Below are positions 6,025 to 25,828 of a DNA stretch of 26,163 bases, in pieces. Both the position numbers and the translations under genes were made by a program. Each line of letters starts with the position of its first letter. Positions within the stretch are counted from its first letter, which is position 1. The stretch comes from a virus. The notes under the pieces are model-generated. The model was not told where the DNA came from. It ran no database searches and saw only the letters and a list, made by a program, of their open reading frames with translations. The stretch is from positions 1 to 26,163 of IMG/VR virus record IMGVR_UViG_3300044700_000163; one strand, given 5' to 3'.

Positions 6025-8394
6025 TTAGGCGTTGCGGGTGATGGTCCAGCCCCTGGAGATCAGGGTGTTGTAGGCGGCAATTGCGTTGGCAGTCCAAGTG
6101 GCAGCGCCTGCGTTGGTGCCGCCGTTCAGGCCAAGCGTGATGTTGGACTGGCCGTTGGTGACGAGAGACGTGAGGATGTTTTCGATGGAGGTGGAAGTTA
6201 GGGCGCAGGCAAGAAAAGTATTGCCAAATGCAGTTGCAACAAGAGTCCCAGTTGTATTAAACGCATTTGCTGGGAAGGTTGCAAGATTGGTGCAACCATA
6301 CCAAGCGGCGTTAAGGTTAGTTGCACTGTTAAAAGTAATTGCGGGAAAACTTGTCAAGCCGGTGCAACCTCTCCAAGTCTCCCCAAAACTTGTCCCAGCA
6401 GCCATATTAATTAGTGGAAAAGAAGTTAAACTTGAGCAACCGTACCAAGCCAATAAAAAGTTTGTTCCCGCAGCAGTGTTGATTAGCGGAAAAGAAGTGA
6501 GTCCTGTGCAACCGCCCCAAGCATTTTGGAAGTTTGTCCCGGCCGCAGTATTGATCAACGGGAAGGAGGTTAGGCTGGAGCAATAAGCCCAGGCTTGGAA
6601 AAAGGTAGTACCAGATCCAGTGTTGATCAAAGGAAAAGAAGTAAGCTTGTTGCAACCAAGCCAAGCATTTGTAAAATTAGTTCCAGCAGCAGTGTTGATC
6701 AACGGGAAGGAGGTTAGGTTGGAGCATTGATTCCAAGCAGACTGAAAATTAGTTCCAGCAGCGGTGTTGATCAACGGGAAGGAGGTTAGGTTGGAGCATT
6801 GACCCCAGGCGGCGAGAAAATTAGTTCCAGCAGCAGTATTGATCAACGGGAAGGAGGTGAGGCCAGAACATCCATTCCAGGTGCCATCAAAATTTGTTAC
6901 GGCAGCAGTGCTAATAAGCGGGAAAAAAGTAATCCCGGAACATGCGCTCCAGGCAGAAGCCAAACTTGTTGCGGAAGCAGTGTTAATTAAAGGGAAAGAA
7001 GTAAGGTTAGAACATCCATTCCAAGCGTTGACAAAGTTAGTAACGCTGGCAGTATTTATTAGCGGAAACGAAACAAGGCTGGAGCAATTAAGCCAAGCGT
7101 TGCTTAAATTTGTGGTAATACTTGTATCTACCGTTGCGTCAAAGCTTCTTAACGCAGTGCAGTTATAGAACGCTGCACTAGCATCAGCCTTCATGCTGGC
7201 TGGAGCCGGCCCAACGGCAATCACTCGATCTTTGTACGTTGCATTGTTGTTGATGTTCGGCTTAAAGAACGTGCCACTATTCAACCGGAACCCAATGTCG
7301 TGATACCCGCCACCATTGGTGAACGTATAGACACCAGTGGTCAATGTCTGCACCGTGCCGTCGCCCCAGTCCACCGTGACGCTTCCGTTTGTCGTGAAGT
7401 TCGGCAGCGCAAAAGTAGCGCCCAGGACCCGCCAGCGCCAGAAGTTGTCATTGACTCCAGCCAGGGCATTGATTTGAGCCTGGGTCAAGTCCCCGTCGTA
7501 GATGGCCGTGCGTTTGATCGTGGGGCCAACCAGCTTCACCGTGGACCCGCCACCGGCTGTGCCGAAAGGGGAGTTGACCGTGGTGAAAGCAGAGGTCGGG
7601 AAGATGCTGGAGTTGGCGTTGGACAGGGTGGCGACGTCTGGTGTGCGGGTGACGGTGGAGCCGGAAGTGGGGATGTAGGAGGTGGGGAAGGAGCCTGCTT
7701 CTATCTGGATCCCCCAAGCGTAATAATTATTTCGCCCCGCGAAATCGTGCCAAAACGATAAGCTAATTAACGAAGAAGAAGCAGTTGTAAAATTAAAAGA
7801 TATTTTTATTCTTTTCCACCCGTTTAGATAATTATCTATCCCTTGATTGGTTACAGTTACTACCGAAGGGCTAAAATTTTCATGAGAAAAAGTGTTGTTT
7901 GATAAGTCAAAAGTAGCCCTAAATTCCCCAGTATACCCTACATTGTATATTTGTATGCGCACAACACTACCCAGGCCGGGCTTAACAAAAGCACTAAAGG
8001 TATATGTTTGCCCTGCTGCATAGGCAATCTGTTTTTGCATATATCCTCCGCCAGCAGAATCAAATAAATCGGCAGTAAATGTATTGTCTGGTGCGATTCC
8101 TACATCAGCAGAATAACCTCCACCGTTTACCGATCCCCATCCACTAAATCCTCCACTATTTGTATTAAAATTTGTAGCCGCTGGTTCCACCATCAGCCCA
8201 AGGCTTTCCCCCGTCGTCGGGTTGTGATCGAAACGCGGGACACCAGCAGCAGCAGTCTTGATCAACCCGTCGGACCCCACAAACGTTGCCGTGCTGGCCC
8301 GCGTAAACGTAACCCTGGGGTCCAAGCGTTTGGTCTTTGCAAAGTCAATGCCCAGGGCTGGACGTGATGCGGGGTAAAGAGATTTGATAGTCAT
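6025..8394 (-). CDS. tail adhesin with carbohydrate-binding-like domain and 24-aa leucine-rich repeats
   Basis: A 789-residue protein, probably a second fibre or receptor-binding component. Residues 1-75 carry LDPRVTFTRASTATFVG and PRFDHNPTTGESLGL, a block common at the start of phage tail adhesins. Residues 75-250 form a beta-rich carbohydrate-binding-like domain, encoded by strikingly AT-rich DNA. Residues 330-370 contain VTVDWGDGTVQTL, a PKD-like motif. Residues 412-725 hold 13 repeats of about 24 residues, consensus C-S-x-L-T-S-F-P-L-I-N-T-A-A-G-T-N-F-x-x-A-W, like BspA/DUF285 surface repeats. A Gly/Asn-rich cap follows (NGGTNAGAATW to RGWTITRNA). An AGG Shine-Dalgarno lies about 10 nt before the ATG. 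It follows the main fibre gene by 12 nt. Confidence 0.85.
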   Translation of the reverse strand: MTIKSLYPASRPALGIDFAKTKRLDPRVTFTRASTATFVGSDGLIKTAAAGVPRFDHNPTTGESLGLMVEPAATNFNTNSGGFSGWGSVNGGGYSADVGIAPDNTFTADLFDSAGGGYMQKQIAYAAGQTYTFSAFVKPGLGSVVRIQIYNVGYTGEFRATFDLSNNTFSHENFSPSVVTVTNQGIDNYLNGWKRIKISFNFTTASSSLISLSFWHDFAGRNNYYAWGIQIEAGSFPTSYIPTSGSTVTRTPDVATLSNANSSIFPTSAFTTVNSPFGTAGGGSTVKLVGPTIKRTAIYDGDLTQAQINALAGVNDNFWRWRVLGATFALPNFTTNGSVTVDWGDGTVQTLTTGVYTFTNGGGYHDIGFRLNSGTFFKPNINNNATYKDRVIAVGPAPASMKADASAAFYNCTALRSFDATVDTSITTNLSNAWLNCSSLVSFPLINTASVTNFVNAWNGCSNLTSFPLINTASATSLASAWSACSGITFFPLISTAAVTNFDGTWNGCSGLTSFPLINTAAGTNFLAAWGQCSNLTSFPLINTAAGTNFQSAWNQCSNLTSFPLINTAAGTNFTNAWLGCNKLTSFPLINTGSGTTFFQAWAYCSSLTSFPLINTAAGTNFQNAWGGCTGLTSFPLINTAAGTNFLLAWYGCSSLTSFPLINMAAGTSFGETWRGCTGLTSFPAITFNSATNLNAAWYGCTNLATFPANAFNTTGTLVATAFGNTFLACALTSTSIENILTSLVTNGQSNITLGLNGGTNAGAATWTANAIAAYNTLISRGWTITRNA
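6223..7161 (-). repeat. 13 tandem 72-bp repeats coding for leucine-rich repeats
   Basis: Repeat units start at 7161 and step by 72 bp (the first is 75 bp) down to the last near 6294-6223. The twelve intervals from 7161 to 6294 sum to 867 bp. Two neighbouring units are nearly identical over 58 nt (6673-6730 and 6745-6802, one mismatch), which indicates recent tandem duplication. Other units differ more at DNA level while keeping the CS-x-LTSFPLINT core. Confidence 0.9.
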
Positions 8395-8406: not shown

Positions 8407-11244
8407 TCAGGAGTTAGCGGCTTTGATGACCGCGAAATTAAAGACCGGTGCCTCTGTCGTGGTGCCCGACAGCGTGGCAAACGACAAGTTGAAACTGCCC
8501 GCCGCTGTGGCTGTCACCCAGATCGCGTATCTGTCCGTGCCGGATCGTTGAGAGACCCGGACCACATCGTTGATTGCGACCGCTGAGTTCGTCACCGTGA
8601 ACGTCTGGAACGTGGTTGAGCCCGCAGCTGAGAACAACGTGATCGAGCCACACGGGGCGTTGATCGTGACCCCAGTCGTCCTGGACGTGAGCTGTGTCAC
8701 CGCAGCACCAGCCCCAACTGCGTAGCCGATGCCGCCCGTGGCGTTAGCCAGCATCCCGCCAACGGAGATGAAAGCCGAGTCCTGAAACGCCATCGTGCCC
8801 AGGTACTGATTCAGCGGTATCTGGTTCGGATCGGTGCCGACATCAACCTGGCTTGCCACCGGATAAACAACGCTCGCAACGGTCTCCTTGATTGGGTTGC
8901 CAAACGTGATGTCGGGATTTATGGAGCTGTAGATCCTGCGGGTCAACGTGTCCAGGTCACCACCCAGCTCAGGTGTCAGGTCGGAAACGACGTTGATGGC
9001 AACGCCTTGTGGATCAATGGTGATGAAACCTGTTTGCTGGTCTACCGCAAACGTGTCCCCAACCTTGAACTTGCCGCTCTGGTCGGTACTGGTGAGCCAA
9101 ACCTTGCCACCGTTGCGGCTGATGGCCTCGTTGGCCTCAATCGCCACCCCACCGTTTTCTGGCAGTGCGGTGTAATCAGTGCCAGACCCGGCGTACTCCA
9201 TCGTGTGGGACGCAGTGCTGACTATTGACCGCAGGTAAAAGCGCCACTGGGTTCCACTCGGAACAGTGACATCAAGACCTAGGTTCTGGGCCCTGTTGCT
9301 GGGGTTCGGACGACTGATGGTGACGTTCCACCCGGCTCCGTTGACCCCAGAGTTGAGGATTGGGTAAAGGTAGGTTGTGCCGCCTACGGTGACCTCAGCC
9401 AGCATGTTGATAGCGGGCCGGTTGGCATCACCGAACCACCCAGGACCGGTTGACGGGGCATTAATGGCAAAGGTGACAGCAGCAGCTGTGGCAGAGCCGT
9501 TCGACGTAGCTGTGAAGATTGGGCTTGGGCTCTTGCCGTCAGCAATCAATCCATATCGACCGAAGTCAGTGGTGCCGACCTCCATGTTGATCTGTCCACC
9601 AGACAACGCCTTGGCGTGGTAATGGCAAAACAGACCAAAGAACGACACGGCCTGGGCATAGCCGTTGTTGCACACCAGCAGACCTGGTCCATCCAGGCAG
9701 ATCTGGGTGAACTCGTTGAGAACGAAGCTCCTCAGGGGACTGGATACGTCCGGCAACGAACCATCAACGATGATGCCACCACCAGTTGGAGCTGACGTCA
9801 GGTCACCACCAGTGCCGGAGTAGTTGTTTGGATCAAACGCAGCATTGTTGATGCCGCTGTCGTTGTAAGAGGTGCTGTTGTTGATGTAAGGCGACTTACG
9901 AATAATGCAACCCGGCAAGAAGCCAGCAACCCAGCCTTGGTTGGCTGGTAGTCCATAGGTTGCGTCGCTATCAACAGTGTTGGTGCCACGCGCCCCTGAT
10001 GCCTTCAGGCCCGCAAAGGTGAAGTTGTCAATGTAGGTGCCGCTGTTGCAGCGGAACATGATCTGCGTTTCGGTGGCAGGCGTTGGGTGGATGAAGCACG
10101 ACCGCTGTGCCTCACCAACGATGGAAAGGTTGGCAACGGTGATGTCGATGGGCAGTACCTCTTGGTACACGCCAGGGGCCACCTTGATGATGTCGCCAGC
10201 AGCAGCAGCAGCCACGGCGTTCTTGATGGTCTTCTTTGGATTGATGATGCGGTGACCGTCGTTCGTGTCATCACCGTTGATCGAATCGACGTAAATGGTC
10301 GTGGGCTGCGTCGTGAACGTGCCGCCGGATGCAACACCTAGCCACGAAGAACCGTTCCAAACCGACAGGGTCTTGTTGACGTCGTTCTGCAGCCAGGTCT
10401 TGCCAAGCCTCCAGCCACTCCCGGCTGGCGTCGACGTCTGGACCAGCGTGTCGTGACGCACGTCCATCTCGTTGGTCGTGGCGCCAGTGGTGCCGATGTA
10501 CGCATTGCTCGAGACCCAGGTCTCGGTTGAATCAATGGTTTCGTCGGTGTTGTTCCAGGTCGTTGAATCGACGTAGGTCTTGGTGGCGGCGTCCTGGGCG
10601 GACGTCGGATCACCAAGGCCGGTGATCTTGTTGGCGCCCATGGCCAGGGCCCCGGTCATCGAGTCCCCGGCCGACGCGACCGTCGTCGAGTCCACGTACG
10701 CCTTGGTGGCTGCGTCTTGGGCGGACGTTGGATTACCGACGCCTGTGATCTTGTTGGTCGACATGGCCAAGGGGCCAGTCATCGTGTCGCCAGCTGATGC
10801 GACGGTCGTGGTATCGACGTAGTTCTTTGTGGCTGCGTCCTGTGCCGCTACCGGATCCAGGACATTGGTGATCCGTTGGTTGCTGGCCGTCGGGAAGCCC
10901 GTTGTCGGGTCCACGTAGACCGATTGCTTGATGTCGTCGTCGATCTCCTGTTCTTTGTACAGGTGCTGCAGGTTGGTGGTGTCCAGGTCAGCCGCGACCA
11001 GGGTCGACCCGTCGGCATAGTCAACCAAGTTGCCAGGTAGGGGCGTCAGTCGCCTGATCTCAACCCGAACCCCCGCCCCCGGAGCTGTCGTGAACTGGAT
11101 GGTGCTGTCGTTGACCCAGGTGAAGGCCGACGTCAGGGTGTAATTGACATACGCAACGATGTGTTCCTTGCGGATATAAGGAAACGCCACTGCGAATTGA
11201 GTGGCTGAGCCGTTGCCGGTATTGATGCTGTACGAGTAAGGCAT
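8407..11244 (-). CDS. tail fibre protein (T7 gp17-like N-terminus)
   Basis: A 945-residue fibre. Residues 1 to about 115 match the T7 fibre attachment domain that docks to the tail: MPYSYSINTGNGSATQFAV, VAFPYIRKEHIVAYVN, and PLPGNLVDYADGSTLVAADLDT. Residues 118-235 hold three copies of a 41-residue repeat with the motif PTSAQDAATK-x-YVD. From about 312 (TIYVDSINGDDTNDG) the pattern fits a right-handed beta-helix, often a receptor- or polysaccharide-binding shaft. Residues 836-945 form a terminal domain shared with the 137-aa protein at 1889-2302. It starts 6 nt after the gp16-like gene. The role is host recognition; the receptor is unknown. Confidence 0.92.
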   Translation of the reverse strand: MPYSYSINTGNGSATQFAVAFPYIRKEHIVAYVNYTLTSAFTWVNDSTIQFTTAPGAGVRVEIRRLTPLPGNLVDYADGSTLVAADLDTTNLQHLYKEQEIDDDIKQSVYVDPTTGFPTASNQRITNVLDPVAAQDAATKNYVDTTTVASAGDTMTGPLAMSTNKITGVGNPTSAQDAATKAYVDSTTVASAGDSMTGALAMGANKITGLGDPTSAQDAATKTYVDSTTWNNTDETIDSTETWVSSNAYIGTTGATTNEMDVRHDTLVQTSTPAGSGWRLGKTWLQNDVNKTLSVWNGSSWLGVASGGTFTTQPTTIYVDSINGDDTNDGHRIINPKKTIKNAVAAAAAGDIIKVAPGVYQEVLPIDITVANLSIVGEAQRSCFIHPTPATETQIMFRCNSGTYIDNFTFAGLKASGARGTNTVDSDATYGLPANQGWVAGFLPGCIIRKSPYINNSTSYNDSGINNAAFDPNNYSGTGGDLTSAPTGGGIIVDGSLPDVSSPLRSFVLNEFTQICLDGPGLLVCNNGYAQAVSFFGLFCHYHAKALSGGQINMEVGTTDFGRYGLIADGKSPSPIFTATSNGSATAAAVTFAINAPSTGPGWFGDANRPAINMLAEVTVGGTTYLYPILNSGVNGAGWNVTISRPNPSNRAQNLGLDVTVPSGTQWRFYLRSIVSTASHTMEYAGSGTDYTALPENGGVAIEANEAISRNGGKVWLTSTDQSGKFKVGDTFAVDQQTGFITIDPQGVAINVVSDLTPELGGDLDTLTRRIYSSINPDITFGNPIKETVASVVYPVASQVDVGTDPNQIPLNQYLGTMAFQDSAFISVGGMLANATGGIGYAVGAGAAVTQLTSRTTGVTINAPCGSITLFSAAGSTTFQTFTVTNSAVAINDVVRVSQRSGTDRYAIWVTATAAGSFNLSFATLSGTTTEAPVFNFAVIKAANS
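10540..10890 (-). repeat. 123-bp tandem repeats in the tail fibre gene
   Basis: Matching blocks begin at 10571, 10694 and 10817, exactly 123 bp (41 codons) apart. Each encodes a variant of NKITGxGxPTSAQDAATKxYVD followed by TTVASAGDxMTG. The third copy is the most diverged. Such collar-like repeats are common between the attachment domain and shaft of phage fibres and allow changes in fibre length. Confidence 0.8.
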
Positions 11245-11250: not shown

Positions 11251-14200
11251 CTAGCGGGGGGTTGGGGACCAGGAGGTGCTGGGTTGCGCTGGCTGCAAGC
11301 TGTTGTCCATACCGTACCGTTGAATGTAAGTTTTTTCAGCCTTTCTGGCTTCAGCGTCGGCCTCTTCAGCAGCAATGAGCTGACCCTTGGCCGTGTTGAA
11401 CTTGAAGTCCTCCTTGGCCAACTTTTTGAACCGTTGGATCTCGGTTTGGATTGCAGCAGCACGGAGGCTGACGTCGCGGCTTGACGGCCCGTCAATGGGC
11501 CAAGACTGGTACTGAGGGGACTCGATCAACTTGGTGGCTGTCTGTTCAAACGTCAAGCCGTACTCGTCCTTGACGGACGCAAAGCGCACGACGTAGTCCT
11601 CAAGCTCGCTGGGGGTCAGGCGCATCTCTGGGCCAAAGTCAGCGGCCCGTGGCCCAGAGAAGTTGGTGCCCTTGCCGGACAGCATGCCCATCTCTTCGTG
11701 AACGGGTCCAAGGGTTTCGCGGCCCTGCTGGAACGCAGCGAACGGGGTGAACTGCATGGCGGCTTGGAGCCAAGGCATGTCAGCCGGGATGATCTCTGCG
11801 CCCAAGATGCCCTGGGTCAAGATCGGGGCCCCGTTGATCCAGTCACGACGCGCCGGCAACGTGTTGGACCACCCGGGCGTTGCGTTGCGCACTTCGTCGA
11901 AGGTCTCCTGGAAGAAGCCCATGAGCCCGCCGATGTCGCTTGGGTCCACGGTGCGGCTGATCGGATCTGTCTCGCGTCGTGATGCCCGCAAGGCGCTGCT
12001 GTACGGCACCAGGCTGGCCACGATCCTGGACATGTACCGAGCCAATGGATCGCGTTGAGCGGGCCCCGTGATGATCTTGCTGGGGTTGAACGCTGCTTCG
12101 TACAACTCGTTGAAACCTTGGAAATAGCTTTTGCTAAGCACACCGCTGGTCGACATCCGAGCCAAGGTCAGCACCAGGCTGGACCCCAAGCGGTTGCGGT
12201 TCTCAATCGACAAAGAATTGGCAATGTCGGTGTAATCACCAATGGCCCCAAAGAGCGTGGCAAACGGTTCCAGGGCTCTCATGGACGTAGGGACCGACCA
12301 GGTCCTGGCGGTTTCGTCCCAGATCTGGATCGAATACGGCATCCGTTTCTCGATCGTCGTCCACTTCTCCTTGGCGGCAGGGTCAATCGGGCCGCCACCG
12401 TTGAACCTGAGATACCCCAGACCCGAAGCCATGGCGACCAGCGACAAAGCCGTTGACCCCATCGCCACTTCCCCCACGGCTCGGTCCCGGGTCCCGGCGT
12501 CTTCGCTTGTGACGTCCCTCCACCACGTGTCAACAAAGACCGCAGCAGGCGTGTTGCGCATGGCGGACTTGATGATGTTTGTCGGCACCCGTTGGAACGG
12601 TTGGATGAACTTGAAGATCGGACCAACCAAGCGGGCATTGGACAGCGTTTGCATGGCTTCGCCTGGGATCGACCCAATCCGGCCAAAGGGCACCGAGCCG
12701 TTGAGGACAAAGTTGGCCAAGCGGTGCTGCGTCTGGCCCTCGTCCACGTACTTCTGGGCAAAGTCCTGCAAGTCGTTGCCGCTCAAGCCCTTGGACTGGC
12801 CGATGCTGATGCCGTTCGACAGGGTCCTGGTCTCAAGCTCAGCCCACACGTTGTCGGTGAAGTTGATGGCGTTCATGAAGTTCTGGGCCTGAGGGCTTTC
12901 CATGACCACGTCGGCCAAGTTTTTGCCGTCAATCACTGCTGACTTCATGGTTTCTTGGGTCCTGGCGTCTGCGTATTGCTGCGCAAACTTCCAGGCCTCT
13001 GGACTGAACTCCTTCATGCCGCGCTCCATTGCCAGATCCATGCCCCGGGGCAGGTGGCGCACGTGCTCGTAGGAGTAGCCAGCGAGCGTGGAGTTGAAGG
13101 TGTCGATGCCAAGGGCCAAGCGGCTGGCGCCTGTGCCGACAACTTGCCACAGCTTGTTGATGGCCTGGCCGATGGGGCGTTGGGCGTATTCCTGGCTCAT
13201 GTTGACCGTGTTGATGGTCCAACCGGTCTGGGCATCTGGTCCAGACAGCAGCTCGCCTTGCGCGTCGCGTTGTGCGACACGGTCCAGCCAATCGAGCGAG
13301 CTGACGTCCATGTTCATCAACGACCGGCCAGCTTTTAAGGAGTGGCCAGCAATGCGCATGGCGTTGCTCAAGTTCATCCAGTACTGCTGGTACATCAGCA
13401 TCGAGTACATGGCTCGCTTCATTTCGCCCTGGGCCACGGCGCCTCCTGCTTGTTGCAATGGGAACCGAGCCAGGTTCAGCATGCCGTTAAAGAAGTTGGT
13501 GTTTGCAGTGACGCCGCTGCTGATCAGGTTGTTGACCCGCAACATCAACAACCCGCTGGGGCCAGTGTTCTGCATGGCCGGGTCATCAAGACGACGCCAC
13601 CACCTCTCGCGCATGGCTGGCTCAGCGCCGGCACTGATCAGGCTTTGAGCCAGCGCATCAGCCGCGGCCTGGGCCTTAGGCGTGATTTCGCCACCGTTGG
13701 CGGCTTGCACTAGCTCCTCGTCGATCTTGCCGGTGATGGTCTCCTCGATCGGGCGGGCCCCTTCAACTTGAAGCTCCCTGGTGATCGCTTCCTCAATGTC
13801 AACCGCTTCGGCTGGTGGCCCGGCAGGACCAGCAGGACCAGCGCCGACCATCTCGGCCGATGGCCCAGCAACAGCCGCGGGCTCGCCTGCCACTTGCGCC
13901 ACACCTGTTGCCGGTGGGGCGTCGTAGTTGCGGGGCACCTGCATCTCAACGCCTAGCTGGCCCCAGGGCCTGGTGACCCGCATCACGGCTTCGTGGGTGG
14001 CACGTGCTGATTCAGCCGCAGTGATCAACCGAGCCAGGCGTTCTGATTCGTTGAGACCTTCGACACCAGCTGAGTTCAGCCACATGGCAGCTTCCATCGA
14101 AGCCTCAACCTGTTTCTTGTCGGCCAGCCACATGGCACGGTTCAAAGCGCCCAGCTGGTACTCCTCAAAGCCAGCAATCAGTGGATCCAGGCCCCGCATG

Positions 14201-17200
14201 ATGAGAGGGCCGTCTTGACCGTGACGAGTCAGCCACGCTTCGCTCAAGGACCGGTACTCCTCCCGGGTGAACACTGGGCGTCCAGACATCTCGGCCCGAT
14301 CAGGCAACACCTTGGACATCGCGTTGTAACCGTCGACCAGGTCTTCCTTGGTTGCGGTGTAGATGCTTTGGCCGGAAGGGCTTTGGGTCTTTTGGAAACT
14401 GTTGGTCAGCAGATCGTCGTAGGTGATCTCTCCGCTCAGCAGTTGCTCCTTGGTCAACCCAAGTTGCTGGGCAAATCGACGCACCCACTCGTCGCTGTTT
14501 TCGGGACCAGGGCTTGGGTCCACCGGCCGCGGCCCTTCTGGCACCTCGCTGGTCAACTGCGTCGGCTGCTCTGACAACAGGCGCTCGTCCCGGGCAAAGT
14601 CAACCATGGGCTTCAGGCCGGGAACGCCCTGCTTGTCGAGCTCACGGATCCGACGGGCCCATTCCTTCTCCTGGCCCTCGGCCATGCCGACGATGTCAAG
14701 GACGCTGCCGAGCCCTTCGGTCTGTTTCTTTAGCTCGCCCGAGTACGCCTGGGCAAAGATGTCCCGAACAGATGTCCAGCCACGGCCCCGGAAAGCGTTG
14801 TACAACCGCTCGGCATAGACGAACATGTCGTCGATCAACGCAATGCCATTGAGGATGGCTTTGCCGGCCCCGGCGACGGTCTTCTCGACAGCGTCGGTGG
14901 GCTTTATTTCATTGAAAAACTTGATGTCGTCTGGGGTGACGCCAAGCATGACGGCACCCGGCGAAACACCTGCAGCAGCAGCATCTGCGTAGCTTTCAAA
15001 TGCTTGTGCACCTTGCTCAATGGGTCGATCGGTCCGTCCAGAAGCTCGACCCCGCCTGTTCTTTTCGGCAAAGTACAGCTTCAACTTGGCAAACATTGTG
15101 TTCATGACTTTCAGCTGATCCGCAGTCATGCTTCTCAACTGCAAAACATGAAACGCTTCGTGGGCGGCAACGTTTAGCTTGCTCTTTGTGTAATCAACAA
15201 TGGTTGCACCTTTGAACGGCATCAACGACATTTCGTGGAAGTCAATCACTTCCTTGATTGGGTCCCCTTCAATGCTGGACTTGAGATCAAGGTTGTATCC
15301 ACCGCCAATGCGACGCACCTTGCCTTGGGTGCCGTGGGCTGCAGTGCCCTCTTTGAACACCATCCCGTCCTGAAACTTTACGGCGACGTCGTCACCAGCA
15401 ATGCGGCGAACCACGTTGATCATGGTGTCCTTGACGGCTGCAACCACGTCCGGGTCGACGCGATACGAGCTCGGCAACTGGTCCGGCAGGATCTCGCCAG
15501 CCTTGCGCACGGCATCGGGGTCCAGTGAACCCATTTGCTCTGACGTCAGCTGAGCGCCGGGCTTGGGGGCGCCAGTTAAGCGATCAAGGGCCGCTTGAGC
15601 CACGACAAGGTCTTCCTGGACCTGTGCTTCTTGCTGGACAAACTTGGCCAGGTTTTTGTCCCAGTCCCGCTGCTGCTTTGCCGTTACAGCTGCGCTGGCA
15701 CTTGGCTCCGGTGGATTGGCTTTCAGTTGCTGAATCTGCTCCTGTGTGCCTTGCAGGAGTTTCTTGACCTCCTGCAACCTTGCTGCGGCGACAGTGACTG
15801 GCGGCTCAGCAGCTCTTGCTGTGTACGGATAGGCGTCTTCCAGTGCCTTGATTGCTTCGTCGGAAACAGCAGGTGCCGCCTCCTCGGCTGGTCGCGCAAG
15901 CACTGGCGCTTCGGGCGCCGGAGTTCCCGCGCTTGGGACACTCGGGGCCACAGCTTGCGCCGGTGGTTGATCAAGGGGGAGTCGTGGCTTGCCACCTTCG
16001 GCCTCGATCGCAGCCCGTAGCCGCTCAAGGTTCTCGGTGACGATGGCTTTAGCTGAACGCTTGGGGCCCACCAAGGCCGCCATTTCATTCAGCAGGTCCC
16101 GCACTGGCCCGGTGTACCCGGTGACCCGGTCAAAGATGTTGACAGCGATCGCAGCCTGGCCCCTTGCAGCTTGCGACCCGGCGACGTCGACGACATTGCC
16201 GGCAGCCTCAAGAATCCCCCTGCGCCCTTCCCGGGACACAGACGTCAACGCAACCATCTCCTCCCGCAAGGCCTTGAACGCCTCGGTCCTGATGTCCAGC
16301 AGTTGATCAAAATTGCTGGTCTTGAACATGTCCTCAAACCCAGGCAACACGCCACCACCAGTGACTTCAGCTGTCTGAGCAAACTTGGCCTCCTGCATGG
16401 CCTGGAGGATCTTGTCGGCCGGCCAACCCTTCTTGGCTGCCTGGGCCGCCACGTCCCGTACGACGACGTCGTCGAGCTTCACGCTGCCCAGGGCCACAGC
16501 TTTCTCCAGGCTCAACTTGCCGGTGGCGCCTTGCTCAAAGATCTCCTGCGGCAAGCGGGAGAGCGCCACGCCTTTTTCCGCCACGCCTTTGGTGACGTCG
16601 ATGTTGCGACGAGCCATCTCCTCGCCGTCGATGCCCATGTCGCGCATGATCTTGGCGGCGTCCCAAGCCGTGCCTTGGCCTTCGGCAATGTTTTCCATTG
16701 CGCCAATGGCCCGGGCCATGTCGGCATTGGGGGCGTCGATCTCCCAGGTCAAGATGTTCTGGACGCCAGACCGACGGGCCAGGTCCAAGCGGTTGTGGCC
16801 GTTGACGACCAGCAGGCGCCCGGTCTCCGGGTCACGCCAGACGCTGACGATCTTGCCGAACAACGGGTCATAGGACTTGGCGTCCTTCAGGGACCCGGAG
16901 ACACCACGCTTGCCTTTGCCTTGGCCAGCTGCCTTGAACTGCAACCTGACCGGGTCGGTGTCAATGTCAGCAACAGGCGTTTCCCGCACTTGGGAATAGC
17001 TCGGCATGGCGTTGCCACGGTCCACCGTCGGCACCGGGCCGGCTTCATCGGGCACCGTGTTAGACGCACGGGACACCGCAATCTCGGCGTCGGTCGTTGC
17101 TTTGACGAAGTCAGCTGTTGCTGCTTGCACGTCGGTCCGGGGGTCATCAAGACGCCCTTGGACCTCAACGCCTTGCTGTTCCCACAACGGCGTCCGAGGC

Positions 17201-18339
17201 CGCATGTCCATGTACGCCTTGGCGATGTCAGGCGCAGAAGGCTTGCTCTTGGGGGCCGGCTGGGTGACGCCAGGGCCGGCATTGGGATCGGTGGCAACCT
17301 TGGCGTTAGGGCCGACGGGGGCCGCGGTGACGTCAACTGTTTGCCCAGACGCCGGGGGCTCAGGTGGGACGTTGGGATCAGCACCTTTGGTGGCTTGGCG
17401 AGCATTGGCCAGGTTGATGATCGACTTGGCCACCCGGCCGAGGCCCTCGATGGTTGCGCTGGCCGCTGGGCCAACGAAGAACATGCCTTCGACGCCGGAC
17501 TTCCAACGTGCATCGGCAGCAGTGTCGCCAGGCGCTGAACGCACCAGGTCGAGCAACGGGGCATGGATTGGTGTCCCGCGCTGCTTCTCGACCCAGGTCA
17601 GGACCTGATCCGTCAGCGTCGAGCTTGCGTCAAAACCCGCGTAATCGACAATGAAGCCAGGTGCAGCGCCTTGAGCAACGATGGAGCCAGCTCCAATCGC
17701 AGTCTTTGCCGCAACACCAGCGACGCCAGGAGCGCCCTTGGCAAAGGAGCCCAAGGTCCTGGAAGCCTGGACCAAGGGTTGCACCATCCTTGCCGCACCG
17801 GCAACCGCAGGCACTTGCATGGCCGCACCGCCGGCTCCCTTCAGGCCCTTGGACGCCAAGAAGAATCCCATGGCCCCTTGGATGAATCCGCCCAGCATTT
17901 CCTCCGTCGGGTTCTGGTACTTGATCTTCGGCAAAGCCGGCAACACTCCCAGCAACTTGGCGTCCGGGGCCCCCACTGGCCGCGGACGGCCCATTGCCGA
18001 GCTGACGATGTCGGCCGGTGCGTTGCCAAGTACGCTTTGGGTCAGGTTCTGGACAGGAGCAACAATCAGCCGCGTCGCTGGTGATGCGTTTCGGCTGATG
18101 TCTTCGGCGCCTCCGGTGTAATAAGCGCCGATCGTTTTGCCGACGTCACCGGTGCGCATCAATGTCTGACCGGCAGACACAAGTCCAGAGAGTCCTGCTG
18201 CTTGCAGGTCTCCAAGTACGCCAGGCATCATGCGCGGCGAGTTGTCAGGTTTCTTGATGCTGGCCGGGTCTATGGGCTTGCCACCCGTCCGCACGTGCTC
18301 AACCGTGCCGTCGGGACGGGTGATGAATTGGGAAGGCAT
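11251..18339 (-). CDS. giant gp16-like internal virion (ejection) protein with ParB-like and HExxH domains
   Basis: A 2362-residue protein in the gp16 slot, much longer than T7 gp16 (1318). The N-terminal 300 residues are Ala/Gly-rich with hydrophobic helices. Residues 465-545 form a ParB/sulfiredoxin-like fold (GRLLVVNGHNRLDLARRSG, H515). A coiled-coil, Pro-rich linker lies near 840-910. Residues 1056-1120 carry a zinc protease motif, AAHEAFHVLQ (H1060, E1061, H1064), with a possible third ligand E1108 or E1115. Pro/Ala-rich linkers lie around 1480-1530, and a hydrophobic segment (STALSLVAMASGLGYL) near 1960. I see no T7-type transglycosylase. In T7, gp16 is ejected and helps form the channel for DNA entry; similar ejection is inferred. 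The layout resembles phage polyvalent proteins. Confidence 0.85.
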   Translation of the reverse strand: MPSQFITRPDGTVEHVRTGGKPIDPASIKKPDNSPRMMPGVLGDLQAAGLSGLVSAGQTLMRTGDVGKTIGAYYTGGAEDISRNASPATRLIVAPVQNLTQSVLGNAPADIVSSAMGRPRPVGAPDAKLLGVLPALPKIKYQNPTEEMLGGFIQGAMGFFLASKGLKGAGGAAMQVPAVAGAARMVQPLVQASRTLGSFAKGAPGVAGVAAKTAIGAGSIVAQGAAPGFIVDYAGFDASSTLTDQVLTWVEKQRGTPIHAPLLDLVRSAPGDTAADARWKSGVEGMFFVGPAASATIEGLGRVAKSIINLANARQATKGADPNVPPEPPASGQTVDVTAAPVGPNAKVATDPNAGPGVTQPAPKSKPSAPDIAKAYMDMRPRTPLWEQQGVEVQGRLDDPRTDVQAATADFVKATTDAEIAVSRASNTVPDEAGPVPTVDRGNAMPSYSQVRETPVADIDTDPVRLQFKAAGQGKGKRGVSGSLKDAKSYDPLFGKIVSVWRDPETGRLLVVNGHNRLDLARRSGVQNILTWEIDAPNADMARAIGAMENIAEGQGTAWDAAKIMRDMGIDGEEMARRNIDVTKGVAEKGVALSRLPQEIFEQGATGKLSLEKAVALGSVKLDDVVVRDVAAQAAKKGWPADKILQAMQEAKFAQTAEVTGGGVLPGFEDMFKTSNFDQLLDIRTEAFKALREEMVALTSVSREGRRGILEAAGNVVDVAGSQAARGQAAIAVNIFDRVTGYTGPVRDLLNEMAALVGPKRSAKAIVTENLERLRAAIEAEGGKPRLPLDQPPAQAVAPSVPSAGTPAPEAPVLARPAEEAAPAVSDEAIKALEDAYPYTARAAEPPVTVAAARLQEVKKLLQGTQEQIQQLKANPPEPSASAAVTAKQQRDWDKNLAKFVQQEAQVQEDLVVAQAALDRLTGAPKPGAQLTSEQMGSLDPDAVRKAGEILPDQLPSSYRVDPDVVAAVKDTMINVVRRIAGDDVAVKFQDGMVFKEGTAAHGTQGKVRRIGGGYNLDLKSSIEGDPIKEVIDFHEMSLMPFKGATIVDYTKSKLNVAAHEAFHVLQLRSMTADQLKVMNTMFAKLKLYFAEKNRRGRASGRTDRPIEQGAQAFESYADAAAAGVSPGAVMLGVTPDDIKFFNEIKPTDAVEKTVAGAGKAILNGIALIDDMFVYAERLYNAFRGRGWTSVRDIFAQAYSGELKKQTEGLGSVLDIVGMAEGQEKEWARRIRELDKQGVPGLKPMVDFARDERLLSEQPTQLTSEVPEGPRPVDPSPGPENSDEWVRRFAQQLGLTKEQLLSGEITYDDLLTNSFQKTQSPSGQSIYTATKEDLVDGYNAMSKVLPDRAEMSGRPVFTREEYRSLSEAWLTRHGQDGPLIMRGLDPLIAGFEEYQLGALNRAMWLADKKQVEASMEAAMWLNSAGVEGLNESERLARLITAAESARATHEAVMRVTRPWGQLGVEMQVPRNYDAPPATGVAQVAGEPAAVAGPSAEMVGAGPAGPAGPPAEAVDIEEAITRELQVEGARPIEETITGKIDEELVQAANGGEITPKAQAAADALAQSLISAGAEPAMRERWWRRLDDPAMQNTGPSGLLMLRVNNLISSGVTANTNFFNGMLNLARFPLQQAGGAVAQGEMKRAMYSMLMYQQYWMNLSNAMRIAGHSLKAGRSLMNMDVSSLDWLDRVAQRDAQGELLSGPDAQTGWTINTVNMSQEYAQRPIGQAINKLWQVVGTGASRLALGIDTFNSTLAGYSYEHVRHLPRGMDLAMERGMKEFSPEAWKFAQQYADARTQETMKSAVIDGKNLADVVMESPQAQNFMNAINFTDNVWAELETRTLSNGISIGQSKGLSGNDLQDFAQKYVDEGQTQHRLANFVLNGSVPFGRIGSIPGEAMQTLSNARLVGPIFKFIQPFQRVPTNIIKSAMRNTPAAVFVDTWWRDVTSEDAGTRDRAVGEVAMGSTALSLVAMASGLGYLRFNGGGPIDPAAKEKWTTIEKRMPYSIQIWDETARTWSVPTSMRALEPFATLFGAIGDYTDIANSLSIENRNRLGSSLVLTLARMSTSGVLSKSYFQGFNELYEAAFNPSKIITGPAQRDPLARYMSRIVASLVPYSSALRASRRETDPISRTVDPSDIGGLMGFFQETFDEVRNATPGWSNTLPARRDWINGAPILTQGILGAEIIPADMPWLQAAMQFTPFAAFQQGRETLGPVHEEMGMLSGKGTNFSGPRAADFGPEMRLTPSELEDYVVRFASVKDEYGLTFEQTATKLIESPQYQSWPIDGPSSRDVSLRAAAIQTEIQRFKKLAKEDFKFNTAKGQLIAAEEADAEARKAEKTYIQRYGMDNSLQPAQPSTSWSPTPR

Positions 18340-18382: not shown

Positions 18383-21300
18383 CTAAGGCTTCACGCGGGA
18401 CGGCGACCGACCGCGTTGATTCGGGTCGATTCGGACTCGGATCCGGCCGGGGCCTTGATCCAGGCTTCCGTACAACTGCTTGAAGGCTGCCGGGGACAAG
18501 TCAACGATGCGTGGGTCCTGGCGGTTGATGGAGCTATCGGTCCCTTTCATGGACCCGACGTCGTTGGCGTAAACCCGCACTGACTTGCCGGTGTCCAAGT
18601 CTTCTACCAGAAGCCACTTGTCCAGATACTTGCCACGCAAGGAACGCTGCACCGCAGCTGTCATGTGGTTGGGATTGAAGCGATCTTTGTTGTTAGCCGT
18701 CATGGCACCAACGACGCCGTCGCTGCCACCGCTGCCGGTGTAGTAAGTGGCAATGCCCGTCATGCCACCACCCCGCCTGGTGGCTGGAGTTGCCATTGCA
18801 GGGGCCTGACTGCTGCTGCTGCGGAACTCCACATGGCCGCCATGGGAGCCGGGGTAGTCGTTGACCACCCAGCCGTAGCGGGCCCCGTTCTTGCGGATCC
18901 AGGCGATCGAGGTGCCGTGGATGTCCATCGCATTGCCCCCCAAGTGCAACGATCCCTCGGCACCACGCTCTGCTCTGTTTTTGGCGGGAGTGCGCTGAGA
19001 GCTGGCGATGTCGCTCGCCTTCACCTGGCCGCCTGAGTCCCTCACCATTGCGGCGAACGCATTGGCCCCCTGCTTGGTGAAGACAGGAGGGCGACCCTTC
19101 TCGTCCTTCATCCCAGAGATGGTGTAACCGGCGCCCGAATCACCCGAACTGCCACGGATGGCGGGGCCATCGTCCCATCGACCGGGCGATCCGCTACCCG
19201 TAAAAGGGCTTTCGCCATACCGGCCGCCTCCCTGCGAGTCGAGCGTTGCAGCTGAAGCTGGTGGCATGAAGACGTTCAAGGCCCCAGCTCCGGCACTTCG
19301 GATCAAGTTGTTGAGATTTGCCGCTGTCTGCATGTAGGGGTTGGCCGCCACAGGAACCCCGCCAGCGCCTGGTTGCGCGTAACTGATCTTTTGCTGATCC
19401 CGCGCCTTCAGAAGCTCAATGTCTTTCGGATTTATCTTGGCGCCCTCAGGTGCCATCTTGTCCCACTGCTTGTAAAAGAACTGGGACGGCGCGGCACCGT
19501 ACCCGCTGCGCTTGATCAACAGCTTCATGGCGTCCGACAAGCGACCGTTCTCGACGTAGTCGTCGTAGTTCTTAAAGAACTCCGCCGGGGGCATAACAAC
19601 ACCGCTGTCGACCCGTTGCTGAAGTACGTGATTGGCGGCCCTGTTGCCGGGACCCAGCTGGTTAAGGCCAAGACCTTGCATCCAGGCTTCGGGCCCTTTG
19701 GGCATCAAGGGAACCATGCTGGGATTGGCGGGCTTGGGGGCTTGCGCTTCTTGCTTCTGCACCCAGGGCGCCAGCCTGTTTTGGAACCCTTCCTGACCAC
19801 TGCCGTCGGCCATGGTCTGACGACGCATGATCTCGATGCTGTTCGACAGTTCGACGTCCCGGTTGACAAGGAACAAGCTCTCTTTCTTGGTGATGGCCGT
19901 GCCACCCTCCGACCCAGGCAACTTCATTGCTGCCATTTCCTGTTCCATGATCCTGGCCTTGGCCAACTTGGCAGCGTTCACGGCCGGCCGCAGATCTGCC
20001 GATTGCAAGTCCCGGTATTGACCGATCATCCTGTCTGCGTACCTGGGGTCTATGAGGCCATTGACTTTCAGCTGCTCAAATTTGCGGATCTCAGTGGCCG
20101 GGTCCTTGTCGTAGCTGAACGACGTCTCGCGTTCAACCTGCTCCTGCATGGGCCTGGTCCAGGACGTGTTGGACTGGGTCCTGGATTTGTTGATCGTTGC
20201 CTGCGCGCCCTGTCGTTCGCCGTCGGTGAGTTGTGCAGCCATCAAATCAGCCTGCATGTAACGATTGTTTCGCTCGACTGGCGTCAGGCTTGGGTCATCG
20301 GCCTTGGTGATTGCAAGAATCTCAACGCCTTTGCTTTCACCAATGGACCCCTTGAACGAATCAACTGACTCGTTGAATGTCTTCAGTTGAACCATCATCT
20401 TCTGGGTCAACGCCAGCTGGGCTGCTGTGCCACCTTTGGCGCCCAGCGTCGCGAGCAACAGCTCTCCATTGGGGCCGGCCTGGACCTGGGTAAAGACGTC
20501 GATCGCCTTGCCCATCAGGTAGTGGTATCGCTGGGGGTCTGGCTTGAGGCCCTTGCCCATGCTGCCTGCAAGCACAGCGGACGACAGCCAGTCGCCGTAG
20601 TTGCCAACAAGTTTTTGGTACTCCTCAACGCCGAGACTCAGCCTGGCGCTGGTAAGCATTTGGCTTTGGTCGGCCACCATCCGAGGCACATCAACGTCTT
20701 GCCCCATGAATCCGCTGGTCAATGCTGCTTGGCTGGCTGAGCTGGCCTCATTGACCTTGCGATCCAGGTGCATGCCCATGTGCAACCTGCTGATCTCTCC
20801 GTTCTTGGCTGCCACCAACGGCATCAACTCGGCAAATCCGGCCGGGTCGTTTTTCGGCAAGCGGTACAAGGCCGACATGGTGCCACTGAGACGTGGATCA
20901 CCTGGCGGGATCTGGTCAATCGGGACGCCGTCGATCTCGGTAATGGTCTTGAATCGTTCAACAGCGGTGCCGATGTCCTCGCGCAACACAGCTTGGCCCG
21001 CGTACCGAGCCGTGTAAGCCTGTTGCAATGGGCTCAAGGCTTGCATCTGCTGGTACGCAGCAGCAGCGCCGGCGTCACCTGCTTGAGCCTGGCGCCACAA
21101 GCTGTCTCTGGCCTGGATGAAGTTTTGGCCGGGGGCAACCAGCTGCATGGCTGCAGCTTGGCCAACCGCTTGGGCCTTGGCGTCGATGTTCTTTTGCTGC
21201 TGGATGTAGCTGTCGCCCAGGGCGCCTAGGACCGGGCTGAGATTCCCGAGTGCCGAGGCCAATCGCGCCAAGTCTTGGCTCGGTGTCGGCAGGTCCGGGA

Positions 21301-21511
21301 GCGGAAAGAACTTAGGGGCGCCACCCAGCGTCGGAGCGCCCACCTGCTGGAACGTCGACACCGGCCGAGCCTGGGCCTGCAAGGCCGGAGCATTGATCGA
21401 ACCTTGGGCCAAGGCGCCACCGGACGCATCGGTGGGGATGCCACCCAGGAGTTGCGCTGCTGTGCCGCGATCCGTGTCGCCGTATGCCTGACCGGTGGAT
21501 AGACGTGCCAT
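18383..21511 (-). CDS. gp15-like internal virion protein with M15-like peptidase and RlpA-like domains
   Basis: A 1042-residue protein in the gp15 slot (T7 gp15: 747). Residues 1-780 are mostly helical and Gln/Ala-rich, as in ejection proteins. Residues 795-900 look like an M15/VanY-type peptidase: SSQRTPAKNRAERG, SLHLGGNAMDI (H856, D863) and HGGHVEFR (H893). Residues 919-1030 resemble the RlpA double-psi beta-barrel: GIATYYTGSG, VRVYANDVGSM (D984), RIVDLSPAAFKQLYG. RlpA proteins often have AAH in the middle, but here the matching MTAAVQ has V954, so activity of this part is uncertain. The two domains could open peptidoglycan during DNA entry, taking over the work of the T7 gp16 transglycosylase. 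It starts 3 nt after the gp14-like gene. Confidence 0.85.
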   Translation of the reverse strand: MARLSTGQAYGDTDRGTAAQLLGGIPTDASGGALAQGSINAPALQAQARPVSTFQQVGAPTLGGAPKFFPLPDLPTPSQDLARLASALGNLSPVLGALGDSYIQQQKNIDAKAQAVGQAAAMQLVAPGQNFIQARDSLWRQAQAGDAGAAAAYQQMQALSPLQQAYTARYAGQAVLREDIGTAVERFKTITEIDGVPIDQIPPGDPRLSGTMSALYRLPKNDPAGFAELMPLVAAKNGEISRLHMGMHLDRKVNEASSASQAALTSGFMGQDVDVPRMVADQSQMLTSARLSLGVEEYQKLVGNYGDWLSSAVLAGSMGKGLKPDPQRYHYLMGKAIDVFTQVQAGPNGELLLATLGAKGGTAAQLALTQKMMVQLKTFNESVDSFKGSIGESKGVEILAITKADDPSLTPVERNNRYMQADLMAAQLTDGERQGAQATINKSRTQSNTSWTRPMQEQVERETSFSYDKDPATEIRKFEQLKVNGLIDPRYADRMIGQYRDLQSADLRPAVNAAKLAKARIMEQEMAAMKLPGSEGGTAITKKESLFLVNRDVELSNSIEIMRRQTMADGSGQEGFQNRLAPWVQKQEAQAPKPANPSMVPLMPKGPEAWMQGLGLNQLGPGNRAANHVLQQRVDSGVVMPPAEFFKNYDDYVENGRLSDAMKLLIKRSGYGAAPSQFFYKQWDKMAPEGAKINPKDIELLKARDQQKISYAQPGAGGVPVAANPYMQTAANLNNLIRSAGAGALNVFMPPASAATLDSQGGGRYGESPFTGSGSPGRWDDGPAIRGSSGDSGAGYTISGMKDEKGRPPVFTKQGANAFAAMVRDSGGQVKASDIASSQRTPAKNRAERGAEGSLHLGGNAMDIHGTSIAWIRKNGARYGWVVNDYPGSHGGHVEFRSSSSQAPAMATPATRRGGGMTGIATYYTGSGGSDGVVGAMTANNKDRFNPNHMTAAVQRSLRGKYLDKWLLVEDLDTGKSVRVYANDVGSMKGTDSSINRQDPRIVDLSPAAFKQLYGSLDQGPGRIRVRIDPNQRGRSPSRVKP

Positions 21512-21514: not shown

Positions 21515-22312
21515 TTATCTCTTGAAACGACCGCTGTAATCGGCCGCCGTGATTGGTTGGATGCCGGAACTGAACCCACCACCAAAGCCTGTGGCGCTTG
21601 CGGAACTGGGAGTCGCCTTTGGCACCGGTGGCGGCTGGCCCGTCTTGATCTTGTTGAGCGACGCGCTTGTGCTCATGCCCGTTTGGACGCCACTGACGAC
21701 GGCACCTGCGCCCTGCAGGATGAACGGCAACATGCTGGGCTTCGCTTGGTAAAGGGGCTCTTGTGGATCCAGCACCGGTTGCTTGATGTACGCCTGTTGA
21801 CTGGCGATCCGGGAGCCACGCTGGGCGGCGGCCCCACGTTTCTCAAGTTGAATCTGTTGGCCAGTAAACGCCAGATTCTGGCTGCTGTAGTAGTCGTATT
21901 GAGCTTGCTGCCTGTAGACGTCGGCCATCAGCGTTTCCACCGTGTTGCCCAGCCGCCCTGACGCCAGCACCTCGCCCCTGGCCTTGGCTCCTGCGGTTGC
22001 AGCTTGTTGTTGTTGCTGACTGGTCGCAGCAGTGTCTTGCATCAGTCGGAGATTGAGCTGTGCGATGTCGTCGTAGAACGAGTTGTCGGCCATCAGGCGG
22101 TTGATCCGCATCACTTCTTCCTGTTGGTTGGCCCGCATCACCTCAAAGTTCCGGGTCGAGCTGGCTTGCATCTGCTGAAACCGGAACCCTTGTTGGGCCT
22201 GGGCATTGGCGAAGTCGACTTGCTGCTGGGCAGACTTGTAGCCAGCCACCGCTTGACCAATGCCCAGGCCGGCACTAAGGATGCCAAGGGTGATGGAGAC
22301 CGGTTCGCACAT
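21515..22312 (-). CDS. gp14-like internal virion protein
   Basis: A 265-residue protein (T7 gp14: 196) placed between the gp13- and gp15-like genes. It starts MCEPVSITLGILSAGLGIGQ with a Gly-rich hydrophobic segment (residues 5-25). A long Gln/Ala-rich helical part follows (QQQVDFANAQAQQGFRF, then TSQQQQQAATAGAKARGEVL). A second small hydrophobic segment (MLPFILQGAGAVVSG) lies near residue 200, and the tail is Ser/Gly-rich. In T7, gp14 is ejected and sits in the outer membrane as part of the DNA channel; this protein probably does the same. The gap to the gp13-like stop is 4 nt. Confidence 0.85.
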   Translation of the reverse strand: MCEPVSITLGILSAGLGIGQAVAGYKSAQQQVDFANAQAQQGFRFQQMQASSTRNFEVMRANQQEEVMRINRLMADNSFYDDIAQLNLRLMQDTAATSQQQQQAATAGAKARGEVLASGRLGNTVETLMADVYRQQAQYDYYSSQNLAFTGQQIQLEKRGAAAQRGSRIASQQAYIKQPVLDPQEPLYQAKPSMLPFILQGAGAVVSGVQTGMSTSASLNKIKTGQPPPVPKATPSSASATGFGGGFSSGIQPITAADYSGRFKR

Positions 22313-22316: not shown

Positions 22317-22784
22317 CTAGATCCTCACGAACTCATGGAACAGCCGACCTTCTGTTCCGAATCTGGGATGCGACGAGATGAAGGTAAACCCCATCCACCG
22401 CAACCATTTGATATGCACCACGTTACGAGCATCTGCGAGATTGAAAAGCACCCGGTAGCGGAGTTGGACTCGGTCGAGGTGGGTCCGAGCCTCTCTCAGG
22501 AACCGCATGGAGTTGAGACGGTCCCGGACCAGGTCGTCGGTGCACAGCATCCAGATCGTGCCAATGTCTCCGTCTTGTGGAACGACGCCCCACATGCCCA
22601 TGGGCCTGCCGTCTCTCCCGATCATGGTCATGCAGGGAGACCCAGCAAAAAAGCTGTGCAGCAGGGACTCCTGAGGGGTGTGGCCTGAGTGCGCCCGTAC
22701 TTCTGCGACGTCCTCCTCCCTCATGAACTCCGCCACGTAGGGGATGTCAGCGACCCTGGTGGGCCTGGTGTACGCGGACGTCAC
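22317..22784 (-). CDS. gp13-like protein (GNAT-fold internal virion protein A type)
   Basis: A 155-residue protein (T7 gp13: 138) starting at GTG 22784, which overlaps the tail tubular B stop by 4 nt (GTGA). A longer frame from GTG 22820 would overlap that gene by 40 nt and adds an unlikely leader. It begins MTSAYTRPTRVADIPYVAEF and contains SPCMTMIGRDGRPMGMWGVV and DIGTIWMLCTDDLV, the strand pattern of a GNAT-like fold. It ends with a region typical of these proteins (HIKWLRWMGFTFI). T7 gp13 is needed for virion assembly but has no proven acetyltransferase activity, so I do not claim an enzyme here. Confidence 0.82.
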   Translation of the reverse strand: MTSAYTRPTRVADIPYVAEFMREEDVAEVRAHSGHTPQESLLHSFFAGSPCMTMIGRDGRPMGMWGVVPQDGDIGTIWMLCTDDLVRDRLNSMRFLREARTHLDRVQLRYRVLFNLADARNVVHIKWLRWMGFTFISSHPRFGTEGRLFHEFVRI

Positions 22785-25207: not shown

Positions 25208-25816
25208 TTAACGACGCAGGGCCCAGGCGGGCTTGTAAGTCATGAAAACATCTGTGTGGTTTGGATTGCCACGTAGCCAGCTGTGGTCCCCACGGGTCGT
25301 CTCTTCCTCCAGGAACAAGCTGCGGGCCTCAGCCTCGGCAGTGACGTTGATCCGCGACAGGTCAGCTGATCCCAGGATCGCTTCCTGCAACTGGCGGCCA
25401 GCCTTGATCATGAAGTACTGGTGGGCGTACTCAGGCACCTCGTCCCACTCAAGGATGTAGGTGACGTCGGCACGTAGGTCCTCGTCGAACTGGTAGCTGC
25501 CAGCCCGACGGTCGTAAAGCCTGCCCCCTCTCATGACGACGTCGACGTCTGGGTAGGAGTAGGGGTCGACCTTGACCCGGCTGACGTTGGACCCAATGCC
25601 GATCTGTTTGGTCACTGAGTCCCGCATCAGCAGGCGCTCGTAGTCCGTATTGAACGACCACCCCTCGGTCTGGATCTTGCGAGAGACGTCGTTGATGGCG
25701 TCTTGGGCTTGTTGTGCCAGGCCGAACTGGCCATTGAGACTGTTGACTGGTGCCTCGCCGAGCATTTGCAGCACCCGGTTCACGGCTTCCAGGAACGTGG
25801 TGCGAGCAAGGGTCAT
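25208..25816 (-). CDS. tail tubular protein A (gp11-like, adaptor)
   Basis: A 202-residue protein, close to T7 gp11 (196). From ATG 25816: MTLARTTFLEAVNRVLQMLGEAPV, then a helical region (AQQAQDAINDVSRKIQTEGWSFNTD) and beta strands, ending NPNHTDVFMTYKPAWALRR. The EAVN-x-x-L-x-x-IGE-x-PV-type start and the QTEGWSFN motif are typical of this family. It forms the dodecameric ring between portal and nozzle. An open frame extends upstream to 25984, but it overlaps the capsid gene and the terminator, so the ATG at 25816 is preferred. No clear Shine-Dalgarno is visible. Confidence 0.95.
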   Translation of the reverse strand: MTLARTTFLEAVNRVLQMLGEAPVNSLNGQFGLAQQAQDAINDVSRKIQTEGWSFNTDYERLLMRDSVTKQIGIGSNVSRVKVDPYSYPDVDVVMRGGRLYDRRAGSYQFDEDLRADVTYILEWDEVPEYAHQYFMIKAGRQLQEAILGSADLSRINVTAEAEARSLFLEEETTRGDHSWLRGNPNHTDVFMTYKPAWALRR

Positions 25817-25828
25817 GGCGAAAGCCCC

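Follow-up and report, generated by a model that had tools for sequence, protein, structure and literature searches.

Polyvalent and ejected virion proteins of known phages

Combinations of MPTase, ParB and ART domains are known from polyvalent proteins, which are presented in passages of Iyer et al. 2017 as large late-operon products with zincin-like MPTase, ParB-type and ART domains in mosaic arrangements, predicted to be packaged and injected (PMC5512222). Neither 'gp16' nor 'internal virion' occurs in the text of that paper. DdrB of phage P1 contains a possible metallopeptidase (HELGH at 872) and, according to Iyer et al., a ParB-type domain; a processed form is present in the phage head, and processing is reported to occur before packaging.

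Several giant or ejected virion proteins provide a second set of comparisons. The giant N4 virion RNA polymerase, which is ejected, combines an HExxH (zincin-like) module with an adjacent large helical part; it carries an RNA polymerase, and the relevant passages of PMC12633501 describe no ParB domain in it. It is a precedent for a giant ejected HExxH protein. The internal virion proteins D of ProddE (a Desulfovibrio phage), the Roseobacter CRP phages and S-CBP42 (a Synechococcus phage) are about 1220-1610 aa long. For the Prochlorococcus phage P-SCSP1 (MPP-C), passages of PMC9860041 mention two large genes that could not be annotated and that the authors speculated to encode internal virion proteins; the corresponding P-SCSP1 protein is not named in the searched passages of the P-SCSP1u cryo-EM paper.

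The 2362-residue protein and its late operon

The window analyzed here is the whole 26,163-nucleotide stretch of IMGVR_UViG_3300044700_000163, a viral contig of 26 kb. The ORF proposed by a sequence-only reading at 11251-18339 is real at those coordinates, with 2362 codons on the minus strand, and its product was rightly described as far larger than that of T7, as the gp16 homologues covered by a review range from 609 to 1337 aa (PMC8954989). Full-length relatives include L001, L002, L008, L014, L016, L017 and others. The genes of the window are as follows.

25208-25984, late operon: Tube/gp11
22781-25204, late operon: nozzle/gp12
22317-22820, late operon: gp13-like
21515..22312, minus strand: gp14-like internal virion protein (PF24072, E 2.8e-10)
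18383..21511, minus strand: gp15-slot protein of 1042 aa, with M15-peptidase-like and DPBB lytic-transglycosylase-like regions at the C-terminus (both slightly below the Pfam cut-off)
11251..18339, minus strand: gp16-slot protein of 2362 aa, whole ORF, ATG to TAG
8407..11244, minus strand: T7-type tail fibre (PF03906, E 1e-37)
6025-8394, late operon: second tail-protein-like ORF, 789 aa
4077-4820, strand opposite to the late operon: M15-peptidase protein, likely endolysin
2302-4038, strand opposite to the late operon: T7-type large terminase

The operon has the T7-type order of gp11/Tube, gp12/nozzle, gp13-like, gp14-like, gp15-slot, 2362-aa ORF and tail fibre, in which the ORF lies between the gp15-slot and tail-fibre genes. 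This position amid late virion genes is of the polyvalent type. The second tail-protein-like ORF contains tandem repeats of about 72 bp of the LTSFPLINTAAGTNF type and is possibly receptor-binding. A T7-like RNA polymerase is encoded in all 13 related records tested and was not found in the 26-kb window, which is possibly a fragment.

Searches of the whole 2362-aa protein against Pfam, NCBIfam and PADLOC returned no matches, and no host or prophage relative was confirmed in two genome-collection scans. The protein contains no strong hydrophobic segment, the maximum mean hydropathy being 1.35.

The ejection-protein framework

Comparison with internal virion protein D relied on profile A7, built from this protein or its positional equivalent in ProddE, CRP-227, CRP-114, CRP-403 and S-CBP42. 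Two terminal blocks were recognized.

17389..17760, minus strand: N-terminal block common to ordinary internal virion protein D, residues 194-317 (profile A7)
11254..13662, minus strand: helical gp16-type C-terminal block, residues 1560-2362 (phrog_6651, hhalign)

Positions 193-313 of A7 match residues 194-317 (E 2.5e-7), and the same N-terminal match is obtained in the relatives L061 (E 5.9e-15) and L066 (E 9.5e-13). Toward the other end, A7 positions 700-781 and 912-1169 match residues 1597-1678 and 1890-2176 (best segment 5.7e-35). The C-terminal block also matches phrog_6651, an internal virion protein family, at E 8.7e-26, and its hhalign comparison with A7, including ProddE, the CRP phages and S-CBP42, gives a probability of 100 and an E of 1e-38. 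Between the two blocks, about 390 A7 positions face about 1280 residues of the 2362-aa protein. Because internal virion protein D matches in two blocks, the ParB and zincin domains described below fall within an insertion of ~900 residues.

Homology to annotated members and the operon slot place the protein in the internal virion protein D class, and the gene order gp14-gp15-ORF-fibre is conserved with several autographiviruses. The internal virion proteins D of ProddE, the CRP phages and S-CBP42 share the operon slot and the homologous N- and C-terminal blocks, but are far shorter than the 2362-aa protein; neither an HExxH nor a GHNR-type motif turned up in those of ProddE and CRP-227.

The assignment to a 'gp16 slot' holds by operon position, whereas the detectable homology is to autographivirus internal virion protein D only. 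Attempts to join residues 1560-2362 to T7 gp16 failed, with an hhalign probability under 1%. As the C-terminal block lacks detectable T7 gp16 homology, the slot is positional relative to T7, and the periplasm/cytoplasm topology of T7 gp16 is not transferable to this protein. In T7, the wall hydrolase, an N-terminal transglycosylase, sits on gp16. The 2362-aa ORF has no Pfam match to an SLT transglycosylase, and the wall-hydrolase-like regions (M15 and DPBB, both sub-threshold) are instead at the C-terminus of the gp15-slot protein; in P-SCSP1g, an SLT domain is likewise found in the gp15-slot protein. A comparable hydrolase swap between the two proteins has been described for phage K1E (PMC8954989). 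The AlphaFold2 (AF2) model of residues 1560-2362 is poor (mean pLDDT 56.6), and a fold search with this model gave no significant match.

The ParB-like domain

The insertion contains a domain that the sequence-only reading had described as ParB-like, and profile and fold searches bear this out.

16363..16995, minus strand: ParB-like N domain and helix-turn-helix (HTH) region, residues 449-659 (AF2, Foldseek, VIA-align, phrog_21, phrog_6218)
16789..16803, minus strand: NGHNR motif, residues 513-517 (H515 in 34/34, R517 in 31/34)

Residues 442-618 match phrog_21 of PHROGs, a ParB-bearing family labelled portal (E 7e-36 with the whole protein, 5.8e-37 in a further search), and the isolated domain matches phrog_6218, 'ParB-like partition protein' (E 1.6e-5). 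AF2 prediction based on 34 aligned relatives yielded an alpha/beta domain followed by helices, with pLDDT mostly 80-90, and places a ParB fold around H515. Foldseek retrieved the crystal structures of Caulobacter ParB (E 1.4e-5), Geobacillus Noc and plasmid KorB, each with a probability of 1.00. With VIA-align, the model superposes on ParB over 94 residues (Z 9.9, rmsd 2.5) and on Noc in a 203-residue alignment (Z 9.6, rmsd 4.7). The fold match spans both the nucleotide-binding and the HTH parts of ParB/Noc/KorB.

H515, N516 and N550 are invariant in the 34 aligned relatives, and R517 is present in 31. Judged by eye, NGHNR appears to stand where ParB has the GERRxR phosphate motif, and the ParB/Srx features found are the N-domain fold, the HTH and this GxxR-type phosphate motif. 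The motif in the insertion is GHNR, not GERR, and the residues following N550 look unlike classical ParB. No Pfam match for ParB was obtained in the 2362-aa protein, and profile searches of the PDB with the ParB, zincin and C-terminal regions turned up no credible relative. Of the inserted blocks, ParB shows the strongest conservation (dN/dS 0-0.17), and the close relatives compared do not exchange it.

The putative zincin module

Downstream of the ParB-like domain, the candidate protease region contains three predicted features.

14968..15453, minus strand: predicted zincin-like metallopeptidase module, residues 963-1124 (predicted topology; conserved residues in 34/34)
15148..15162, minus strand: HEAFH, residues 1060-1064, predicted zinc-binding/catalytic motif
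15016..15018, minus strand: E1108, predicted to be the third zinc ligand and placed on the conserved helix that follows

By chance, a protein of such composition would contain 0.005 HExxH motifs. H1060, E1061, H1064 and E1108 are invariant in 34/34 relatives with identities down to 22%, so that HExxH is accompanied throughout by a conserved downstream metal ligand. The AF2 model gives a helix, several short strands, the HExxH helix and a later helix bearing E1108. This order agrees with the MPTase core outlined in passages of Iyer et al., namely an N-terminal helix, three strands, the HExxH helix and a Glu helix (PMC5512222).

The zinc-protease module that had been read from the motif is supported by the motif, the conserved residues and the predicted topology around H1060, but a match of the zincin part to a solved protease was not obtained. 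The predictions around H515 and H1060 do not refute the sequence-only reading, which had named a missing ParB or protease fold there as its refutation. Pfam gave no zincin match in the 2362-aa protein, and the matches listed in the whole-model fold searches (Foldseek, VIA-align) are to ParB and coiled coils. Since ParB and a long coiled coil fill those lists, the missing zincin matches are not read as absence of the fold. A zincin fold in residues 963-1124 is likely, an assignment that stands on topology and residue conservation.

Relation to polyvalent proteins

Two observations support the link to polyvalent proteins: a search of a viral structure library placed a 'Large polyvalent protein associated domain-containing protein' first, and passages of Iyer et al. 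describe MPTase/ParB/ART combinations (PMC5512222). A predicted ParB fold and HExxH...E are present in one ORF, and ART-like domains are present in relatives. Profile searches, which had been suggested as a check, gave a mixed outcome: PHROGs ParB families matched, while Pfam returned no ParB or zincin match, ART-PolyVal was sub-threshold in relatives and the DdrB profile was unmatched. P1 DdrB, tried as a bridge, gave no profile match. It belongs to another phage type, and the ParB-like domain described here includes an HTH part and has no detectable similarity to DdrB. The arrangement also differs from that of the polyvalent proteins of Iyer et al., as the cassette is enclosed by a gp16-type ejection protein that retains both of its ends.

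A counterpart of the same architecture is the 2563-aa protein of P-SCSP1 (L023), which shares ParB, zincin and the gp16-C block. It is about 30% identical, contains further regions and is annotated as 'hypothetical protein'; an ART-like stretch was noted in it by eye and is unconfirmed by Pfam. Very large proteins with a ParB-like motif were also observed in Ruegeria phage 45A6 (L130), together with HESIH, and in Salisaeta icosahedral phage 1 (L131), whose gp43 is annotated as a structural protein.

Exchange of the middle insertion among relatives

The boundaries of an exchange were mapped at the DNA level in one pair, the window and L005; the remaining pairs were compared as proteins.

14555..15913, minus strand: block replaced wholesale in L005, about residues 809-1262 (blastn breakpoints, dS)

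The window ORF and L005 are 94.8% identical in DNA over codons 129-809 and 94.7% over codons 1262-2362, and blastn detected no DNA similarity between codons 809 and 1262. In this comparison, dS values of 0.14-0.25 were obtained for the flanks, against 2.4, close to saturation, for the zincin part. Unless L005 is a chimeric contig, this pattern indicates replacement of the block by recombination. Among 14 phage pairs in which ParB is at least 92% and the C-terminal block at least 88% identical, the stretch between them is 46-59% identical. Judged from these sequence comparisons, the middle insertion behaves as a cassette exchanged between close relatives.

Domain orders were counted in complete, non-identical ORFs. 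ParB, zincin and the C-terminal block follow one another in 31 ORFs, two of which (L021 and L022, near-duplicates) have an added ART-like domain. ParB is absent from L054 and L066, which have ART-like and zincin domains, and from L067, which has the zincin; all three retain the C-terminal block. The complete ORF of L047 has ParB and ART-like domains and no HExxH, so the zincin module is dispensable. The ART assignment rests on the motif and on sub-threshold Pfam matches, which in L047 are ART-PolyVal (E 5e-4) and DUF3990 (6e-6). A split arrangement occurs in L025/L102 and most of L069-L077, in which the ParB and zincin gene lacks the C-terminal block and, where the contig is long enough, is followed by an overlapping gp16-C-like ORF of about 1100-1180 aa. 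For this downstream ORF, the match to internal virion protein D has E values of 3e-9 to 5e-9 in L070-L072 and is weak or not significant in the others.

Two recurring elements were noted beside the exchanged domains. A linker peptide, TAVQPMGNVAAAAIEPP or near-identical, recurs at cassette borders in about 20 relatives, including L005, L008, L014, L016, L017, L043, L045, L063, L066, L067, L103, L113 and others, and its coding DNA varies mostly at synonymous sites. Two copies flank the ART-like cassette of L066, and L067 has two partly matching copies. The window protein does not contain this peptide, for which reason a role in autocleavage remains a lead. An additional cassette domain, with the signature F.SDLDRAAYI, precedes the zincin in L005, L009, L010, L020, L034-L036, L043, L055, L102 and others, and it is absent from the window protein.

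A proposed cargo cassette and the alternatives

The best explanation, with a probability of about 0.6, is that an Autographiviridae-like podovirus has a polyvalent effector cassette inserted in the middle of its gp16-type ejection protein, which carries it in cis and delivers it at entry. It builds on the gene slot, the homologous ends, the ParB fold prediction, the invariant zincin residues and the block exchange, all of which are established computationally; from these, we infer packaging, docking, ejection and catalysis. The varied domain content of L047, L054, L066 and L067, the group with a split gene, the polyvalent match in the viral structure library and the T7-like RNA polymerase in all 13 related records tested also speak for it. 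The ends (about residues 190-320 and 1560-2362) keep the ejection-protein framework by homology and would dock in the internal core. If established T7 biology applies, the protein would exit the capsid at infection, either together with the DNA or before it. The inserted ParB/HTH domain, given its predicted fold, may bind DNA, probably in a nucleotide-dependent manner as in ParB/Noc. The zincin may act on its own polypeptide, so that the ParB cargo is released from the conduit, or it may cleave an early host protein; the dispensability seen in L047 and the linkers within the exchanged block would suit either role. Cassette exchange is what one would expect if the cargo is directed at host factors that vary, and not of a fixed structural part. 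Several negative results count against this explanation: no detectable homology to T7 gp16, no strong hydrophobic segment, no Pfam match for ParB or zincin, no independent structural match for the zincin and no detectable similarity to P1 DdrB. In the openly licensed literature, neither virion proteomics nor ejection data were found for this group, and the internal-virion role of the P-SCSP1 genes is a speculation of their authors.

Another view, doubtful though to be taken seriously, is that the zincin is a maturation enzyme only: it would process the polypeptide inside the capsid or during entry, to allow packing or release, and would have no target in the host. Since one of the two zincin roles in the cargo-cassette explanation is the same, the two views compete in that branch and their confidences overlap. 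Autoprocessing was proposed for MPTase domains in passages of Iyer et al. (PMC5512222), the L005 exchange takes in the zincin together with its flanking linkers, so that protease and cut sites would travel together, and TAVQPMGNVAAAAIEPP recurs at cassette borders. Against this, the peptide is lacking in the window protein, L047 is complete without any HExxH, and the HExxH-bearing N4 virion RNA polymerase is packaged uncut according to passages of PMC5512222.

It is unlikely that the ParB domain serves instead as a part of the DNA-translocation machine, a nucleotide-gated clamp that draws in phage DNA and is not an anti-host effector. The inclusion of nucleotide-binding and HTH parts in the fold match would suit such a clamp, as would the strong conservation and unexchanged state of ParB and the description of T7 gp16 as aiding DNA entry (PMC8954989). 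However, L054, L066 and L067 keep the C-terminal block without ParB, and the divergence from classical ParB at GHNR and after N550 also speaks against a clamp. Far less probable still is a non-virion late protein, either an assembly factor or a late host-takeover protein, placed in the slot by chance. T7 gp16 itself is not detectably homologous, and virion proteomics for this phage group was not found in the openly licensed literature, but each end shows homology to annotated internal virion protein D in a conserved gene order, and the distantly similar ParB-bearing gp43 of Salisaeta icosahedral phage 1 carries a structural-protein annotation.

Extending the cargo-cassette explanation beyond this protein is a tentative step, at somewhat less than even odds. 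The middle of the gp16-type ejection protein would then be an exchangeable cargo slot, comparable to the exchanged tips of polymorphic toxins, in which zincins of different subfamilies, ParB and ART-like enzymes may be traded and, once delivered at entry, would act on host factors or defences before phage genes are expressed.

Biological meaning

The usual view is that T7-like phages rely on early gene expression to disarm the host. If the cargo-cassette explanation is true, a cassette within the DNA-ejection protein would act before that stage, and its exchange between near-identical phages points to selection by changing host factors. What appears to be new, within the openly licensed literature, is the ParB and zincin pair as an insertion within an ejection protein, together with the exchange of the cassette between close relatives; no description of such a cassette inside a gp16-type ejection protein was found there. 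The explanation also offers a testable annotation for the large 'hypothetical' proteins encoded by marine cyanophages (P-SCSP1, MPP-C), in which delivery and target would be directly testable because isolates and hosts exist.
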